Source: Bacteroidota bacterium (lineage in GTDB: Bacteria; Bacteroidota; Bacteroidia; Bacteroidales; WCHB1-69). Taken from it: a DNA stretch of 64,000 nucleotides. How positions within the stretch are numbered: the first letter of the stretch is position 1; every line of letters begins with the position of its first letter. The DNA is taken from positions 1 to 64,000 of the forward strand of contig JAGDMF010000005.1 in assembly GCA_017860455.1 (NCBI GenBank). The letters run 5' to 3'. Of the stretch, positions 1,665 to 58,799 are shown in pieces. A program made the translations under genes and the position numbers. The notes under the pieces were generated by a model, which saw nothing but the letters and a program-made list of their open reading frames with translations, did not search any database and was not told where the DNA came from.

Positions 1665-1670
1665 TAGATA

Positions 1671-1752
1671 ATGTGCTAATGTGCTAATGTGCTAATGTGC
1701 TAATGTGCTAATATGCTAATGTGCTAATATGCTAATGTGCTAATGTGCTAAT
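1671..1752. repeat. 8-bp tandem repeat (ATGTGCTA)x10
   Basis: Ten copies of ATGTGCTA, two of them ATATGCTA, fill the whole gap between the stop codon of the T9SS protein gene and the stop codon of the convergent radical SAM gene. The related word ATGTGCTC appears near 45.63 kb. Confidence 0.95.
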
Positions 1753-13047: not shown

Positions 13048-14913
13048 TTATTTTCTATGACCGGAAGAGCTAGATCCACCTCTGCTTCCTGATGATGAAC
13101 CGGATGAACCGGATGATCTGCTGCTGCTTCCACTACTTGAACCTGATGATGACCCGCCTCGGCTATAGGAGCTTCCACTTGATCCGGATGATGATGGTTT
13201 ACTAGGTGTGTAGCTTCTGTTTGAACCGGATGATGAAGAACTTCCTGAACTGTTTCTATTGTTATTGTTGTAATTGCCGGAACCTTGATTGCTGTTGTTT
13301 CCCCGATTGGTATTGTTGTAATTACCAGATCCTTGATTGTTTTGGTTATTCCTGTTGTAGTTGTAGTCGTTGTTTTGGGAATTATTATTTCGGCTATTGT
13401 TATTATAGTTCCTTTGGTTGTTTTGGTTATTTTGATTATTGTATTGGTTATTTTGATTATTCCGATCGTAATTTCTTTGATTATTTTGGTTGTTATTTTG
13501 ATCAGTATTTCTTTGATTGTTTTGAGGATTTGAATTATTTCTATTGTACTGAGAATTATTGTTTTGAGGTCTGTATTGTTGGTTGTAGTTTTGTCTGTTA
13601 TCAGTGCCTTGGTTGTTTTGAGGTCTGTTTTGGTTGTTATAGTCTTGTCTGTTATCAGTACCTTGGTTGTTTTGAGGTCTGTTTTGGTTGTTATAGTTTT
13701 GTCTGTTATCAGTACCTTGGTTGTTTTGAGGTCTGTTTTGGTTATTGTAGTCTTGTCTGGTATCAGTTCCTTGGTTGTTTTGAGTTCTGTTTTGGTTGTT
13801 ATAGTTTTGTCTGGTGTCAGTACCTTGGTTGTTTTGAGTTCTGTTTTGATTGTTATTGTTTTGTCTGTTATCAGTACCTTGGTTGTTTTGAGTTCTGTTT
13901 TGGTTGTTAGTACTTTGAGTACTTTGATTCATTGGTCTGTTATTAGTGCTTTGTCTGGAATCAACTGTTGTTGTACCGGGAGATGGACGACTATCCACTT
14001 CTTTGATTATGGATGCATAGTTTTGATTAAATGAAGTTGGAGTCACAGAACGGGAAACAGAAGCTGTTTTGTTTCCCTCATTATTTTCACCGGGACCTGG
14101 TCTTCTTCCGCCATTACCACTGGAAGGACCAACATTATTTCTATGTCCGTAATAATAGCTTGAATTATTATCATAAGTATTATGGTAGTATCCTGCATGA
14201 TTGCCATCGTAATAGCCATCCCAGTATCCATCATTATAACCATTCCAATATCCATGATGATATCCATGACCACCATACCAGTAAGGATCATAACCCCAGC
14301 CGTAACAGAACCCATAATTATAGTAACCATAGTTGTAGTAATAAGGTCTGTAATAATAGGTTGGCCACCACCAGCTGTATCCTAAATAGATACTTGTACC
14401 CCAGGTTGCAGGATAGTAATCGTAGTAATACATATTGGTAAAGTAAGGATCATAATAACCCCAGCCTGTATTATAGGCAGTATGAAATCTACGGATTCTG
14501 GAAGTGTAATAGTAATCATAATTATCATAGTTTTCATAATCGGAATAGTAATAATTATCATCACCTGAGTAATTATTGTTATCTTCATAATAGTAATTGT
14601 TGTCATAATCACTATTATTTTGATCATAATTATTATCAGAATAATTTTGATCATACCCTTGATTTTGATCGTAACTTTGGTTTTGATTATTTCCTTGGTT
14701 TTGATCGTACCCTTGATTTTGGGAATAATTTTGGTCGTACCCCTGATTTTGATTGTTATCTGAATAGTTATCAGAAGGTGGGGTTACAGGACGTTGATAT
14801 TGTTTATCTGAAGATGGGGTATATGCATCGTCATAGTAAACTACATTTTCAACTGTACATGAACTGGCGATTAACGTAAGGATGATGCCGGTTATTAATA
14901 GTCTCTTTTTCAT
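13048..14913 (-). CDS. low-complexity Asn/Gln, Tyr and Ser/Gly-rich lipoprotein
   Basis: Predicted outer-membrane or surface lipoprotein (~621 aa). I chose the start MKKRLLITGIILTLIASSC because it gives a lipobox (ASSC) and has a strong AAAGGAGG seven bases upstream; an in-frame ATG 51 bases earlier adds a non-signal tail. After the Cys come: QNQGYDQN repeats (~50-100), a very Tyr/Trp/Gly-rich block (~100-270, WWWPTYYYRPYYYNYGYY), a six-fold 18-aa repeat of NNQGTDxRQxYNNQNRxQ, an Asn/Gln block and a Ser/Gly tail. Most of the protein is expected to be disordered. No enzyme motif. Similar Tyr-rich lipoproteins beside FadL-like genes are, to my knowledge, common in Bacteroidota but have no known function. 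Confidence 0.8.
   Translation of the reverse strand: MKKRLLITGIILTLIASSCTVENVVYYDDAYTPSSDKQYQRPVTPPSDNYSDNNQNQGYDQNYSQNQGYDQNQGNNQNQSYDQNQGYDQNYSDNNYDQNNSDYDNNYYYEDNNNYSGDDNYYYSDYENYDNYDYYYTSRIRRFHTAYNTGWGYYDPYFTNMYYYDYYPATWGTSIYLGYSWWWPTYYYRPYYYNYGYYNYGFCYGWGYDPYWYGGHGYHHGYWNGYNDGYWDGYYDGNHAGYYHNTYDNNSSYYYGHRNNVGPSSGNGGRRPGPGENNEGNKTASVSRSVTPTSFNQNYASIIKEVDSRPSPGTTTVDSRQSTNNRPMNQSTQSTNNQNRTQNNQGTDNRQNNNNQNRTQNNQGTDTRQNYNNQNRTQNNQGTDTRQDYNNQNRPQNNQGTDNRQNYNNQNRPQNNQGTDNRQDYNNQNRPQNNQGTDNRQNYNQQYRPQNNNSQYNRNNSNPQNNQRNTDQNNNQNNQRNYDRNNQNNQYNNQNNQNNQRNYNNNSRNNNSQNNDYNYNRNNQNNQGSGNYNNTNRGNNSNQGSGNYNNNNRNSSGSSSSSGSNRSYTPSKPSSSGSSGSSYSRGGSSSGSSSGSSSRSSGSSGSSSGSRGGSSSSGHRK
13559..13905 (-). repeat. 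54-bp coding tandem repeat, ~6.4 copies
   Basis: Six full 54-bp units plus a partial one, encoding an 18-aa repeat in the low-complexity lipoprotein. Copies differ by only a few bases, so copy number may vary between strains. Confidence 0.93.
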
Positions 14914-14920
14914 AATTTTG

Positions 14921-14928
14921 CCTCCTTT
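14921..14928 (-). promoter_or_regulatory. strong Shine-Dalgarno of the Tyr-rich lipoprotein gene
   Basis: AAAGGAGG on the minus strand, 7 bases before the chosen ATG. It decides the start and is unusual for Bacteroidota, which seldom use Shine-Dalgarno sequences. Confidence 0.8.
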
Positions 14929-14953
14929 TATTATTACTTTGGTTGCTTTTTCG

Positions 14954-14961
14954 TATCTTTG
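14954..14961 (+). promoter_or_regulatory. -7 promoter element for proS
   Basis: TATCTTTG on the plus strand, 52 bases before the proS start and followed by GC as often seen in this genome. Confidence 0.6.
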
Positions 14962-15013
14962 CACAAAATTTAGACTACCAAAAATTCATTAAGTTTAAAA
15001 GTAACGAGAAGAG

Positions 15014-29293: not shown

Positions 29294-29337
29294 GGGGAGA
29301 AGGAACTGGAATAATTGTAAAAAAGAGACAAAAGTTC

Positions 29338-29490
29338 GGAATGCTCAAATGCTCGAATGCTCGGAATGCTCGATAATAAAGGACTGGTGACGGGAGAAGT
29401 TCGACGTTAAACGTTCGAGGTTCGACGTTAAACGTTAAACGTTCGAAGTTCGACGTTAAACGTTCGATGTTCGAAGTTAAAAGTTCGACG
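29338..29490. repeat. intergenic word repeats: AATGCTCG and ACGTTAAACGTTCGA
   Basis: 29338-29373 holds four imperfect copies of AATGCTCG. 29399-29490 is made of the units TTCGACGTTAAACG, ACGTTCGA and AGTTCGA in irregular order. Part of a larger non-coding mosaic up to 29592; no ORF of note. The same words recur at 45.62 and 58.77 kb. Confidence 0.85.
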
Positions 29491-29508
29491 AAATCCGCTA
29501 AATTATTC

Positions 29509-29540
29509 GTCCGTAGTCTGTGGTCCGTAGTCTGTGGTCC
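29509..29540 (+). repeat. 32-bp dispersed element, 14-bp period (copy 1)
   Basis: Two exact copies of GTCCGTAGTCTGTG followed by GTCC. The same 32-bp layout with consensus GTCSGYAGTCTGYG occurs at 32010-32041 (inverted) and 45580-45611. Confidence 0.85.
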
Positions 29541-29565
29541 TTTGTCCTGGCATCATTTTTAGCCT

Positions 29566-29590
29566 CGCTGAGGGCGCAGGGAGCGCTGAG
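29566..29590 (+). repeat. 25-bp GC-rich dispersed element (copy 1)
   Basis: Starts CGCTGAGGGCGCAGG and ends GAGCGCTGAG. Identical at 31964-31988 and with one mismatch at 30309-30333; much more GC-rich than its surroundings. Confidence 0.85.
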
Positions 29591-29601
29591 GGATTTCTTT
29601 T

Positions 29602-30237: not shown

Positions 30238-30334
30238 AATTTCAGTTCTATTTTTTTTATAGCACACTGATGAAACTGATTAAACAGATTTTCACAGATT
30301 ATTTTCCACGCTGAGGACGCAGGGAGCGCTGAGA
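30238..30334 (+). repeat. ~97-bp direct repeat, left copy
   Basis: Begins AATTTCAGTTCTATTTT, contains GCACACTGATGAAACTGATT and ends with the 25-bp GC-rich element. About 90% identical, in the same orientation, to 31894-31989. Together they bracket the two AT-rich lipoprotein genes. Confidence 0.9.
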
Positions 30335-31797: not shown

Positions 31798-31850
31798 AAA
31801 AACACTGTGGAACACTTTTTAACACTGAGGAACACTGTGAACCAAAAAAA
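31798..31850. repeat. AACACTG word repeat
   Basis: Four close copies of AACACTGNGG/AACACTTTTT type words in the 350-bp gap after the lipoprotein pair. The gap (31692-32041) holds no gene; it consists of this word, the direct repeat and a 32-bp element. Confidence 0.7.
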
Positions 31851-31893: not shown

Positions 31894-31989
31894 AATTTCA
31901 GTTCTATTTTTTTATAGCACACTGATGACACTGATTTAACAGATTTTCAGAGATTATTTTTCTCGCTGAGGGCGCAGGGAGCGCTGAGA
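31894..31989 (+). repeat. ~97-bp direct repeat, right copy
   Basis: Second copy of the element at 30238-30334, same orientation, about 90% identical, again ending with the 25-bp GC-rich element (31964-31988). Confidence 0.9.
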
Positions 31990-32009: not shown

Positions 32010-32041
32010 AGACCGCAGTCCGCCGACCGCAGACTGCCGAC
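32010..32041 (-). repeat. 32-bp dispersed element, 14-bp period (copy 2, inverted)
   Basis: Minus strand: GTCGGCAGTCTGCG, GTCGGCGGACTGCG, GTCT. It abuts the stop codon of the nitroreductase gene. Confidence 0.85.
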
Positions 32042-43183: not shown

Positions 43184-43414
43184 ATGAAAACAATATCTTT
43201 AAAAATTGATACGCTTATTTTTGGAGAAACAGAAATGATTCTTTCGCATTTAAAAATTCCTAGAAATCGCTACATAAATGAGGCATTAGCTTATTATAAT
43301 GCAATTAAAAACAGACAGTTACTAGAAAAACAACTACAGAAAGAGTCTGCCTTAGTTCAAAAAGAATCAATCAATATATTAAATGAATTTGAAGGTTTGG
43401 ATTATGTTGATTAA
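43184..43414 (+). CDS. antitoxin of MazF/PemK-type pair
   Basis: A 76-aa protein directly upstream of, and overlapping, the MazF-like toxin gene. The N-terminal half (SLKIDTLIFGETEMILSHLKIPRNRYINEALAYYN) fits a ribbon-helix-helix DNA-binding fold: a short strand followed by two helices. The charged C-terminal half (QLLEKQLQKESALVQKES) probably wraps the toxin. It is predicted to neutralise the toxin and repress the operon through the inverted repeat at the promoter. The class is inferred from size, position and pattern. Confidence 0.8.
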   Translation: MKTISLKIDTLIFGETEMILSHLKIPRNRYINEALAYYNAIKNRQLLEKQLQKESALVQKESINILNEFEGLDYVD

Positions 43415-43754
43415 ACAATTTGAAATTTGGGTTGCAGATTTGAATCCTCAAATAGGAACAGAAACCGGGAAAACACGCCCGGTATTGATTATTCAAACAA
43501 ATTTATTGAATAGTATTCCACATCCATCCACACTAATTTGTCCTATTACGACAAACGTCGAAAAGCGATCAGATATACTGCGTGTTCACCTAAAAAAGGG
43601 AATGGCAAATCTGAATGAAAATTGTGATATTATGATAGATCAAATGAGAGCAATTGACAATCAGAGATTTGTCAGAAAAATTGGTAATTTACCTTCCATT
43701 TTGGAGGAAAAAGTAATACAAAATATCAAGATTGTTCTCGATTTTAATCCATAG
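43404..43754 (+). CDS. MazF/PemK-family endoribonuclease toxin
   Basis: Type II toxin of 116 aa. It begins MLIKQFEIWVADLNPQIGTETGKTRPVLIIQ, the MazF/PemK hallmark (ADLNP...G.E.GKTRPVLIIQ), followed by ICPITTNVEKRSD and NCDIMIDQMRAIDNQRF, which carries the conserved Asp-Gln region. The family cuts mRNA at short sequence motifs. I chose the internal ATG at 43404, which overlaps the antitoxin stop, over an upstream in-frame start that adds seven residues. It is intact and probably active. Confidence 0.9.
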   Translation: MLIKQFEIWVADLNPQIGTETGKTRPVLIIQTNLLNSIPHPSTLICPITTNVEKRSDILRVHLKKGMANLNENCDIMIDQMRAIDNQRFVRKIGNLPSILEEKVIQNIKIVLDFNP

Positions 43755-43791
43755 TATTTGGGCGTTTCGACACCATCTTATTCATTTTTTT

Positions 43792-43901
43792 TCACGCAGA
43801 GATCACAAAGTGATTTTCCACTGAGTCCACTGAGGTAAATATCATTGTGTCCTTAGTGGTAAAAAAAATTGCTAATTCACCAATTTGCTAATTTGCTAAT
43901 T
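43792..43901. repeat. word-repeat block before the RHS tip gene
   Basis: Contains CACGCAGAGATCACAAAGTG, CCACTGAGTCCACTGAGG and then TTGCTAATT words (TTTGCTAATTTGCTAATT). This 170-bp gap between the toxin gene and the RHS tip holds no gene. The last word supplies the -33 box of the next promoter. Confidence 0.75.
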
Positions 43902-43914
43902 TTTTTTATCTTTG
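43884..43914 (+). promoter_or_regulatory. canonical Bacteroidota promoter for orphan RHS tip
   Basis: TTTG (43884-43887), 19 bases, TATCTTTG (43907-43914); exact consensus. The -33 box is part of the TTTGCTAA tandem word. The ATG at 43934 leaves a leader of only about 15 bases. Confidence 0.8.
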
Positions 43915-43933
43915 CTCTTTCAATTTGCACACA

Positions 43934-44695
43934 ATGACCCACTGCACTTGCACTTATTATGATTCCGGTTTGAGTTTATGGCTCTCTGTTGACCCGATGA
44001 GTGATAAGTACCCCAGCATGTCGCCCTATAACTATTGTGCGAATAATCCGGTCATTTTGGTGGATCCGGATGGGAGAGAGGTTGGTGATCCTGATCCGCC
44101 AACTACTTATAAAATAAAAAAAGGAGACACATTTTGGGGTATTGAAAATAAATATAATTTACCTCATGGATTATTAAAATCTGCAAACCCTTTTCTTGAT
44201 CCCCGTAACTTAAAAATTGGCACTGTAATAAATATGACTACATATGGTGATGATTTACCTGTAGTGCCTAATGATGTAAAAGTTAAAGGTTCAAATGATT
44301 TTAGCCAACCAACATCTTCTGGTCCAACAATGAATTTGGATAATTATTATGCACTTAATCCTTTTTTGTTTTTATGGGATATCGCTGGTTTGTTTGTCGG
44401 TAATGGTAGTCAATATGTATTTAGAGGACCACCTGAAAAAACATTTCCAAGTTATGGTCCTGTCCCTTATCCCGGAACTGATCCGACAAAAGCACCTAAA
44501 GGGTATGAATGGAAAGGTCAACCGGGTTCTGTTCAAGGTTCAAAACAAGGAAGTTATCTGAAACCTAATTCAAATGAGAGGTTAAGTCCAGATTTGCTGC
44601 ATGGTCCTCCATATAATGCGCATTGGGATTATAGAGATCCTAATAAAGTATGGTATAGATTATATCCAAATGGAGCATTGATGCCAAAAAAATAA
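43934..44695 (+). CDS. orphan RHS C-terminal tip with LysM and probable toxin domain
   Basis: A 253-aa protein that begins in the middle of an RHS core: YYDSGLSLWLSVDPMSDKYP and MSPYNYCANNPVILVDPDGRE are the end of the RHS-repeat-associated core. Next comes a LysM-like segment (YKIKKGDTFWGIENKYNLP, ~residues 59-105), a spacer, and a C-terminal module with HWDYRDPNKVWYRLYPNG like those of polymorphic toxins. The large RHS barrel is missing and there is no signal peptide. It therefore looks like a detached toxin tip, possibly a donor cassette or a remnant kept with its immunity gene. I used the ATG at 43934; an in-frame TTG lies 9 bases earlier. The toxin activity is unknown. Confidence 0.75.
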   Translation: MTHCTCTYYDSGLSLWLSVDPMSDKYPSMSPYNYCANNPVILVDPDGREVGDPDPPTTYKIKKGDTFWGIENKYNLPHGLLKSANPFLDPRNLKIGTVINMTTYGDDLPVVPNDVKVKGSNDFSQPTSSGPTMNLDNYYALNPFLFLWDIAGLFVGNGSQYVFRGPPEKTFPSYGPVPYPGTDPTKAPKGYEWKGQPGSVQGSKQGSYLKPNSNERLSPDLLHGPPYNAHWDYRDPNKVWYRLYPNGALMPKK

Positions 44696-45417: not shown

Positions 45418-45452
45418 TTATGAAATTATTCTTCCACACTTTCCCGGAATAA

Positions 45453-45571
45453 CGCTCCTCAGGAGCGGGATTGTTTGGTCGGAATTTAAACGCTACCAAT
45501 ATAACGCCACGCTGTGGCGGGTTAGTTTGGTGTGCAATTCATCTGCTACAAAGGTGTCGCTCCTACGGAGC
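45453..45571 (-). repeat. tandem ~52-bp unit with three covarying hairpins
   Basis: Minus strand: hairpin GCTCC-GTA-GGAGC, 40-bp linker, hairpin GCCAC-AGC-GTGGC, 39-bp linker, hairpin GCTCC-TGA-GGAGC. The linkers align (shared TAGC, AATT, ACCAAAC and CCC) so this is a tandem repeat of 52-53 bp. The middle hairpin differs in both arms in a compensating way. Confidence 0.85.
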
Positions 45572-45579
45572 TGAGAAAA

Positions 45580-45611
45580 GTCGGCAGACAGCGGTCGGCA
45601 GACTGCAGACC
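45580..45611 (+). repeat. 32-bp dispersed element, 14-bp period (copy 3)
   Basis: GTCGGCAGACAGCG, GTCGGCAGACTGCA, GACC: same length and layout as the copies at 29.5 and 32.0 kb. Confidence 0.85.
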
Positions 45612-45617
45612 TTTCAG

Positions 45618-45778
45618 AATGCTCGAATGCTCAATGTGCTCATGTGCTCGATTGCTCATGTGCTCAAATTTATTTCATTCATAACTCATAATTCATAATT
45701 CTAAGGTTTTAGCCTTTTACCCTTCGCCCTTAGCCTTTCTTCATTATTCATTATTCATTTTTCATTTTTCATTTCCCC
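45618..45778. repeat. word-repeat block: ATGTGCTC, ATTCATA and TTCATT
   Basis: 45618-45668: AATGCTCGAATGCTC then ATGTGCTC variants. 45676-45702: CATAATTCATAATTC. 45739-45778: TTCATTATTCATTATTCATT and TTTTTCAT words. No gene is present. It ends just before the nifJ terminator. Confidence 0.85.
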
Positions 45779-58766: not shown

Positions 58767-58799
58767 AACGTTCAACGTTTAACGTTTAACGTTCAACGT
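58767..58799. repeat. AACGTTN tandem word repeat
   Basis: AACGTTC AACGTTT AACGTTT AACGTTC AACGT directly after the terminator; the same word family as at 29.4 kb. Confidence 0.9.

Follow-up and report, generated by a model that had tools for sequence, protein, structure and literature searches.

The gaps between genes in the genome of the stretch of DNA analysed here (the window, 64 kb) carry tandem arrays of short words with a period of 7 or 8 nucleotides, and both the words and whole composites of them recur in several gaps. In a congener and, for one octamer, in a distant planctomycete, such arrays are polar, pointing away from the nearest gap edge, and their ends are locked in phase to preferred letters of the unit. 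We read the arrays, tentatively and at somewhat less than even confidence, as end-caps, since amplified, of tiny non-autonomous inserts by which the gaps are filled.

The window is part of a 2.01-Mb assembly that is 65% complete (the source genome), from which the window and 40 further stretches of 20 kb were analysed (864 kb of 2.01 Mb, 43%). The congener (G001, 98% complete) was sampled with 860 kb of about 2.1 Mb (41%), a member of the same family (G014) with 211 kb and other relatives with 5-50 kb each; L236 (G049, 1.3 kb) was excluded from the array count in relatives. The planctomycete MAG RH-18aug17-231 (65% GC) was represented by 26 stretches, chosen since they hold GAATGCTC. Genes were called as ORFs of at least 80 aa, taken greedily by length, and 5' gene ends are therefore approximate; in the high-GC planctomycete the ORF calls are partly doubtful, with 27 octamer arrays falling inside called ORFs.

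Within the window, the octamer array (TAATGTGC)10 + TAAT at 1669..1752, to which no strand was assigned, lies between the convergent stop codons of two ORFs (45-1664 on the forward and 1755-2735 on the reverse strand) and can be written as TAAT(GTGCTAAT)n. The gap on which the preliminary description had centred begins with a GAATGCTC octamer array at about 29338..29373 (forward strand), which advances in steps of 8 or 9 nt and reads away from the left gene edge. It is followed on the same strand by GTTCGAC/GTTAAAC/GTTCGAN heptamers at 29399..29490, previously listed as the AACGTTN type and with akin arrays elsewhere in the source genome by BLAST, by GTCCGTA/GTCTGTG heptamers at 29509..29540, and by the 25-bp word CGCTGAGGGCGCAGGGAGCGCTGAG at 29566..29590. 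As had been described, this last word recurs at 30309 and 31964; it does so without a mismatch, giving three exact copies in the window against none for the reversed control; only three further copies, with 2-3 mismatches, occur in the 2.0-Mb assembly. A 32-bp word immediately precedes it at two of the three sites, a joint duplication of about 95 bp, and the composite of the ACTGATG..ACAGATTTTCA word and the 25-bp word occupies 30238..30333 and 31894..31988, both on the forward strand. The same strand carries the decamer-like module AACACTGTGG at 31801..31839 (overlapping BLAST matches elsewhere in the sampled gaps: up to 11), GACCGCA/GACTGCC heptamers at 32011..32041, the CACGCAGAG..CACTGAG module at 43791..43866 (up to 16 such matches), a TTTGCTAAT octamer array at 43869..43902, corresponding to the earlier word TTTGCTAATT, and TTCATTA/TTCATTT heptamers at 45740..45774. 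Two features remained without an assigned strand: AACGTTC/AACGTTT heptamers at 58767..58799, and a composite module at 45449..45696 that joins CGCTCC/GGAGCG palindromes, GTCGGCA heptamers, a GAATGCTC array and an ATTCATA array and includes a mixed GCTC array at 45618-45668. The words that had been named were found at the places given for them and recur genome-wide: BLAST with window positions 29330-29600 returned 60 matches in the source genome, self included, and a 28-bp pattern of GAATGCTC gave 100 overlapping matches there with one mismatch allowed. Rfam returned no hit in the window.

The arrays are sharply restricted in period. Noncoding tandem arrays in the 864 kb of the source genome numbered 76 for period 7 and 40 for period 8, compared to 4, 1 and 1 for periods 9, 10 and 11 and none for the rest of the 4-13 range; Markov shuffles of the same gaps yielded 0.8 (period 7), 0.6 (period 8) and fewer than one array for any period. 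The words had been said to lie always outside genes, which is largely true of arrays, with 116 of period 7 or 8 in 74.7 kb of noncoding and 15 in 789 kb of called coding DNA, but not of single copies, which in the window also occur in genes, at a lower density per kb than in noncoding DNA (noncoding versus coding: ATGTGCTA 8 vs 1; AATGCTCG 4 vs 2; TTCATTAT 3 vs 9). The preliminary description would have failed if the words were confined to these places or equally common inside genes; as the words are genome-wide and arrays are rare in genes, the idea of dispersed modules stands. Its statement that the words mostly follow stop codons agrees with the array densities, which were highest in convergent gaps (3.9 per kb in the source genome and 3.3 in the congener), followed by tandem gaps (1.5 and 1.7) and divergent gaps (0.9 and 0.8). 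Arrays started 0-5 bp from a stop codon in 11 of 38 cases in the congener (3.4 expected), with 2 more overlapping the stop, and in 10 of 43 cases in the source genome (7.8 expected), with 4 more overlapping. Array counts per 20 kb were overdispersed in the source genome (variance/mean 2.28); the proposed bias towards accessory regions is not shown, array neighbours in the window including pyruvate-ferredoxin oxidoreductase, a radical SAM protein and DUF1015. Among the smaller samples, noncoding arrays of period 7 or 8 were present in G002 (1), G012 (1), G018 (2) and G023 (3), and none occurred in the 5-40 kb samples of G003, G004, G005, G007, G008, G009, G011, G024, G036, G037, G041, G042 and G048. 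Twenty adjacent gene pairs conserved between the samples of the source genome and the congener had a median gap of 14 bp, and none of these gaps held an array.

Within each genome, the arrays are written with few words. In the first 464 kb of the source genome, 48 heptamer arrays used 22 consensus words, where random words of matching composition gave a mean of 45.8 and a minimum of 41, and 22 octamer arrays used 8 words (random 21.9); in 460 kb of the congener, 80 heptamer arrays used 14 words (random 76.2, minimum 70). The larger samples contained 29 words in 76 heptamer arrays of the source genome and 17 words in 127 heptamer arrays of the congener, which had only 2 octamer arrays in its 860 kb. 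The reuse of words is far above that of independent slippage of random words. AAAGGCG is the only heptamer common to both lists, and the family member wrote its 30 heptamer and 6 octamer arrays with yet other words. Among 60 relatives, GAATGCTC was found in one genome, the source itself, and of 395 genomes from the phylum, 2 contained the corresponding array pattern GCTCRAWT, namely the source and a second genome with a single match; in a named collection, GAATGCTC occurred in 60 stretches, 26 from the planctomycete MAG and the rest scattered over several phyla. A vocabulary shared by the phylum was rejected, as GAATGCTC is present in distant genomes and missing from near ones, and because so few genomes of the phylum contain it, compared with 26 stretches of one planctomycete MAG, it is sporadic and not inherited within the family. 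The array vocabulary is largely private to each species.

Replication slippage alone, by which each array would have grown independently in a tolerant gap with the unit of 7 nt set by the DNA polymerase, is in line with the sharp preference for periods 7 and 8. It also agrees with the report that heptamers are the most abundant class of long simple sequence repeats in most genomes studied, for which polymerase contact was suggested (Mrazek et al. 2007, via PMC4679880). Such growth does not explain the reuse of vocabulary, the polarity in the congener, phase-locked ends beside unlike flanks or composites recurring in other gaps. Slippage is therefore disfavoured as the sole cause and is, in our estimation, improbable in that role, but it may lengthen arrays once they are present.

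That modules are copied and reshuffled beyond simple slippage, as had been proposed from the window, is supported by the far-above-random reuse of words and also by whole composites that recur in other gaps. Window positions 45449-45696 match stretch L186 (8169-8405) of the source genome at 82.3%, and 45449-45653 match L184 (16436-16640) at 85.6%; the copies in L184 and L186 agree at 87.5%, all pairwise values being 82-88%. The palindromic module ACCAATATAACGCTCCGCTGGAGCGGG..., which is part of this window composite, is widespread in source-genome gaps (e.g., L180 12573-12683 and 17821-17931; L184 18998-19076), each copy having 10-12 overlapping BLAST matches among the gaps sampled. Where a GAATGCTC array adjoins an AATAATG or AAAAATG array in the source genome, a single order and orientation is kept (6 of 6 adjacent cases). 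When arrays were masked, there were 74 dispersed matches in the congener (2.0 expected) and 5 in the source genome (0 expected) whose two copies both ended next to the same word; these counts are not independent where they come from copies of a single element. The congener also has an element of about 88 bp (TTCCAGAGTGGGG ... CTGCCCCCC with a T/A-rich tail; e.g., L203 4571-4660 and L150 19074-19166); overlapping BLAST matches of one copy numbered up to 60 in the 860 kb, and an AAATAAG array often stands at the 3' end of the element. Rfam analysis of six congener stretches holding this element returned only two tRNAs and no hit to the element.

Since convergent gaps are rich in arrays and congener arrays start so often within 5 bp of stop codons, the arrays might be selected sites acting in transcripts or DNA: inverted pairs could serve as terminator hairpins, for example, and arrays at gene ends as G-quadruplexes or binding sites. 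Quadruplex and translational roles have been proposed for GGGAATC and TAACTGA repeats (PMC4692102, PMC4679880). The orientation of the arrays speaks against this. In the congener, for words occurring three times or more, 91 of 104 arrays read outward from the nearest gap edge, where 64 were expected by chance and the maximum of 2000 simulations was 76. With orientations derived from the first DNA batch and scored on the second, 36 of 40 held-out arrays were outward, comprising 10 of 11 at start edges and 26 of 29 at stop edges. Scored by the sense of transcription, agreement was 17 of 35 in the held-out set and 65 of 104 over all edges. An orientation linked to transcription had been considered, as stop-adjacent recurring words agreed in 31 of 33 cases in the congener and 27 of 32 in the source genome, and was rejected with the congener's all-edge score at chance. 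The polarity in the congener follows the gap edge and not transcription. The congener 8-mer ATTTCGGA pointed outward 23 times and inward once at stop edges, and outward in all 15 cases at start edges, counts for which, as for those of the array ends below, p-values are nominal; arrays that share a gap, or are copies of one module, are statistically not independent. As congener words that lack G runs (AATTACG, GATTTCG) are polar too, quadruplexes need not be invoked for the polarity; GGG on either strand occurs in 4 of 29 heptamer words of the source genome and 1 of 17 of the congener. Given this, and vocabularies that differ between congeners, we consider selected sites an unlikely origin of the arrays.

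In the planctomycete, GAATGCTC arrays within 35 bp of a called edge were outward in 13 of 13 cases (11 stop, 2 start edges), and the four inward arrays lay 85-196 bp from the nearest called edge, all in inverted pairs. In the family member, CAAAATTC was 9:0 at stop edges and mixed at start edges. The source genome itself gave 16 of 28 outward arrays in the held-out set and 51 of 73 overall, against 47.4 by chance, and its held-out score for transcriptional sense was 20 of 30 (p 0.10); with these values, no orientation rule is established there. Some of its families were polar (outward to inward: GCTC 16:3, gcc 9:0, ctc 4:0) and others had no clear polarity (GCTA 12:9, aca 9:5, acc 1:3), and at stop edges AGGGCGAA and AATGCTCG were outward 11:0 and 13:1.

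The arrays end abruptly, as the two flanking units on either side match the phase at only 0.26-0.29. To determine the phase, counts were restricted to ends whose neighbouring units are not degenerate copies, and the positions named in the following were chosen after the counts were seen. Planctomycete GAATGCTC arrays had their 5' ends at G in 24 of 29 cases and their 3' ends after GAATG in 23 of 33. In the congener, AATTACG arrays began at A (43/49) and ended at G (28/47), GATTTCG arrays began at G or A (49/55), GAAGGCG arrays ended at GAA (28/31) and AAAGTCG arrays at AAA or AAAGT (17/18); AGAAATA displayed no phase lock. Giving one vote to each flank cluster, the 5' lock amounted to 17/21 for AATTACG, 13/13 for GAAGGCG (two positions), 9/13 for AAAGTCG, 11/22 at G plus 5 at A for GATTTCG, and 10/14 in the planctomycete; the 3' lock was 8/10 for GAAGGCG, 11/12 for AAAGTCG and 13/16 for GATTTCG (two positions each), and 8/16 in the planctomycete, and was mostly lost for AATTACG (6/20). 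The general form of such a block is X(YX)n, e.g., GAATG(CTCGAATG)n. Most words of the source genome were without a strong lock at clean ends; departures from an even distribution were found for AACCTAA 5' ends (7/10), for the 3' ends of GAATGCTC and AATTTGCT, for TAATGTGC and for the A-rich GAAAAAT.

Outward polarity and fixed first and last letters would also follow if, at breaks in gaps, 3' ends were extended 5' to 3' away from conserved DNA and then rejoined, the extension either copying another array or being made by a polymerase that uses a short fixed template. Such end synthesis at breaks would suit a polarity that is independent of transcription, the fixed unit length, the locking of both ends, and words at the two edges of a gap that are not paired above chance in the congener. 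We rate it as rather unlikely, since the planctomycete has no extension on the core side of the presumed break, no clear gradient runs along the arrays, and a common reverse transcriptase was not found: RVT_1 matches were obtained in the source genome, the congener, G014 and G009 and not in G008, G023, G024 and G036, three reverse transcriptases compared by eye look unrelated, and a Ku match was absent from all eight genomes searched (the source genome being 65% complete). Growth from one end, with older units at the other, was rejected, as there was no flank gradient (p 0.70, 0.97, 0.43); the 5' half of the arrays was slightly more uniform in the congener (p 0.041), with p 0.057 in the source genome and p 0.59 in the planctomycete, for which this test took in 25 of the 26 stretches. 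At a contig edge in G000 (L259), a fragment that by eye resembles a group II intron-like reverse transcriptase was observed at C1:7-474; the reverse transcriptase frame ends at 846 and a GAATGCTC array starts at C1:1172.

In the planctomycete, the arrays frequently form inverted pairs. Thirty of the 45 arrays in the 26 stretches stand in 15 pairs that face each other across a core (> core <), no pair of the opposite arrangement (< >) was found within 400 bp in these stretches, and of the unpaired arrays 8 are at most 400 bp away from where a stretch ends and 7 are in other positions. The number and length of planctomycete arrays may be underestimated, because contigs break in or beside GAATGCTC arrays, as observed at some ends of the whole contigs L071, L108 and L116. 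The cores measure 43-118 bp, with one of 324 bp. Three cores of 43 bp agree at 31, 33 and 36 of 43 positions, the best of 2000 shuffles reaching 23, and are by this similarity homologous. Adjacent arrays in the congener were arranged >< in 48 cases, <> in 15, >> in 79 and << in 67; terminal inverted pairing of the same word was rejected there, with 19 of 57 gaps against 16.3 expected (p 0.21) after exclusion of 22 single-word gaps.

Inverted pairs of short repeats between genes are also a feature of REP-type elements moved by a REP-associated tyrosine transposase, and Y1_Tnp matches were obtained in 29 of 41 genomes searched, with three matches in the source genome. No Y1_Tnp match was found in the congener (98% complete) despite its 127 heptamer arrays in 860 kb; for this genome, the REP-type explanation is refuted unless the gene lies in the missing 2%, and as a general origin we regard it as very improbable. 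MITEs are small non-coding inserts with inverted ends. The planctomycete pairs, 15 in number and with three homologous cores, are, for that genome, comparable to them in the inverted ends and unlike them in that the ends are tandem arrays of variable length, with no target-site duplication or partner transposase seen. Target-site duplications were looked for by eye in the planctomycete examples, and none of the eight genes with arrays near both ends in the 43% and 41% genome samples was recognised as a transposase from its first 60 residues.

No other single explanation accounts as simply as the end-cap reading for outer ends that are fixed, polarity that is outward at start and stop edges alike, inverted pairs around related cores, and composites found again in several gaps. 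An insert would arrive in a gap as a block with fixed ends, each side carrying a word that starts at a fixed letter at the boundary to conserved DNA and reads inwards to the core. The caps would then grow or shrink by whole units of 7 or 8 nt via slippage, and cores and words would be mixed into mosaics where caps that share a word recombine or serve as alternative templates. Each species would hold its own insert families, and hence a vocabulary of its own. The private and reused vocabulary, the polarity at gap edges, the locked ends with their sharp edges, the inverted pairs and the recurring composites support the proposal, as do the relatives of two Bacteroidetes in which the corresponding gaps are shorter and free of repeats (PMC4679880); the period and the noncoding location are part of its basis as well. 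The mobility of the inserts, expansion by units, recombination of caps and the same workings in the source genome are what we infer from these observations. The proposal is weakened by the polarity of 16 of 28 and the lack of a clear lock for most words in the source genome. Same-word pairing not above chance in the congener, the mostly lost 3' lock of AATTACG and the unlocked AGAAATA weaken it further, as do a target-site duplication, an empty site and a partner enzyme that were not found, and the Xanthomonas repeats, which are reported to be stable and not generally tied to mobile elements (PMC4692102).

The preliminary description had mentioned similar words in other Bacteroidota and knew of no formal description, which needs to be amended, as similar heptamer arrays have been published. 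Heptamer arrays were described in Beggiatoaceae, Cyanobacteria and five Bacteroidetes, and for two Bacteroidetes there are relatives with shorter, repeat-free gaps at the same place (MacGregor 2015, PMC4679880). GGGAATC and GGGGA(C/T)T heptamer repeats were described in Xanthomonas and Nostoc, where the largest fraction lies no more than 50 bp from ORFs, on the coding strand downstream and the non-coding strand upstream of them; two Xanthomonas genomes contain 70 and 75 convergent inverted pairs, and the repeats have no general association with mobile elements and loci more stable than controls (Rehm et al. 2015, PMC4692102). These repeats resemble those studied here as intergenic, dispersed heptamers, and their strand placement equals the outward polarity of the congener; it also applies to planctomycete GAATGCTC and is not confirmed in the source genome (16 of 28). 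They differ in comprising one G-rich word type per genome, discussed as quadruplexes, whereas here there are many words per genome, most without GGG, octamers in addition, and a largely species-private vocabulary; the units here do not each contain a run of at least three G. TAACTGA repeats, too, are heptamer arrays between genes, and in Microcystis and some Bacteroidetes other heptamers are interspersed with them; unlike in the present case, one word was followed, which in the Beggiatoaceae genome is mostly located just upstream of start codons (PMC4679880). Long simple sequence repeats differ in being explained by polymerase slippage (Mrazek et al. 2007, via PMC4679880). Like LSSR, STRR and TAACTGA-kind arrays, those of the source genome are tandem heptamers, intergenic and dispersed. 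The STRR sequences and the very small mobile repeats of cyanobacteria are heptamer arrays and small dispersed intergenic repeats with no known function; they belong to another phylum, use other words and are likened here by description, not by sequence. Intergenic heptamer arrays are thus already known, and the polarity in the congener and the locked array ends go beyond what had been noted in the window. The accessible parts of the literature on intergenic heptamer and octamer repeats held no description of end-phase locking or species-private vocabularies, which does not establish their absence in print.

Discussion of heptamer arrays has hitherto turned on slippage, quadruplexes and signals for translation, none of which obviously predicts polarity at gap edges and phase-locked ends, and both features are testable in any sequenced strain series. 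It is possible, though doubtful, that the arrays of at least Bacteroidota and Planctomycetota and, by the published strand data, also of Xanthomonas and Nostoc represent one unrecognised kind of element, with polar X(YX)n arrays that have fixed first and last letters, point away from conserved DNA, use a vocabulary private to each species and cap small inserts. Should this hold generally, a still nameless copying process would be at work in building the gaps of many bacterial genomes, and the choice of 7 or 8 nt would become a tractable question.

Several further features were observed in the window. A PemK/MazF-type toxin gene (43383-43754; region 43184-43754) lies near an array-bearing gap, and a small frame just upstream of it may, as judged by eye, be the antitoxin. 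A LysM-domain protein is encoded at 43925-44695, with a weak C-terminal Ntox37 match below the curated cut-off. ORF 13048-14964 contains a 54-bp tandem repeat at 13559-13909 (6.5 copies, 92%). Finally, two features are in keeping with Bacteroidota: a Por_Secre_tail domain is present among the window proteins, and a promoter-like GCAAAGAT signal, which we take to be the Bacteroidota -7 box, occurs upstream of genes.
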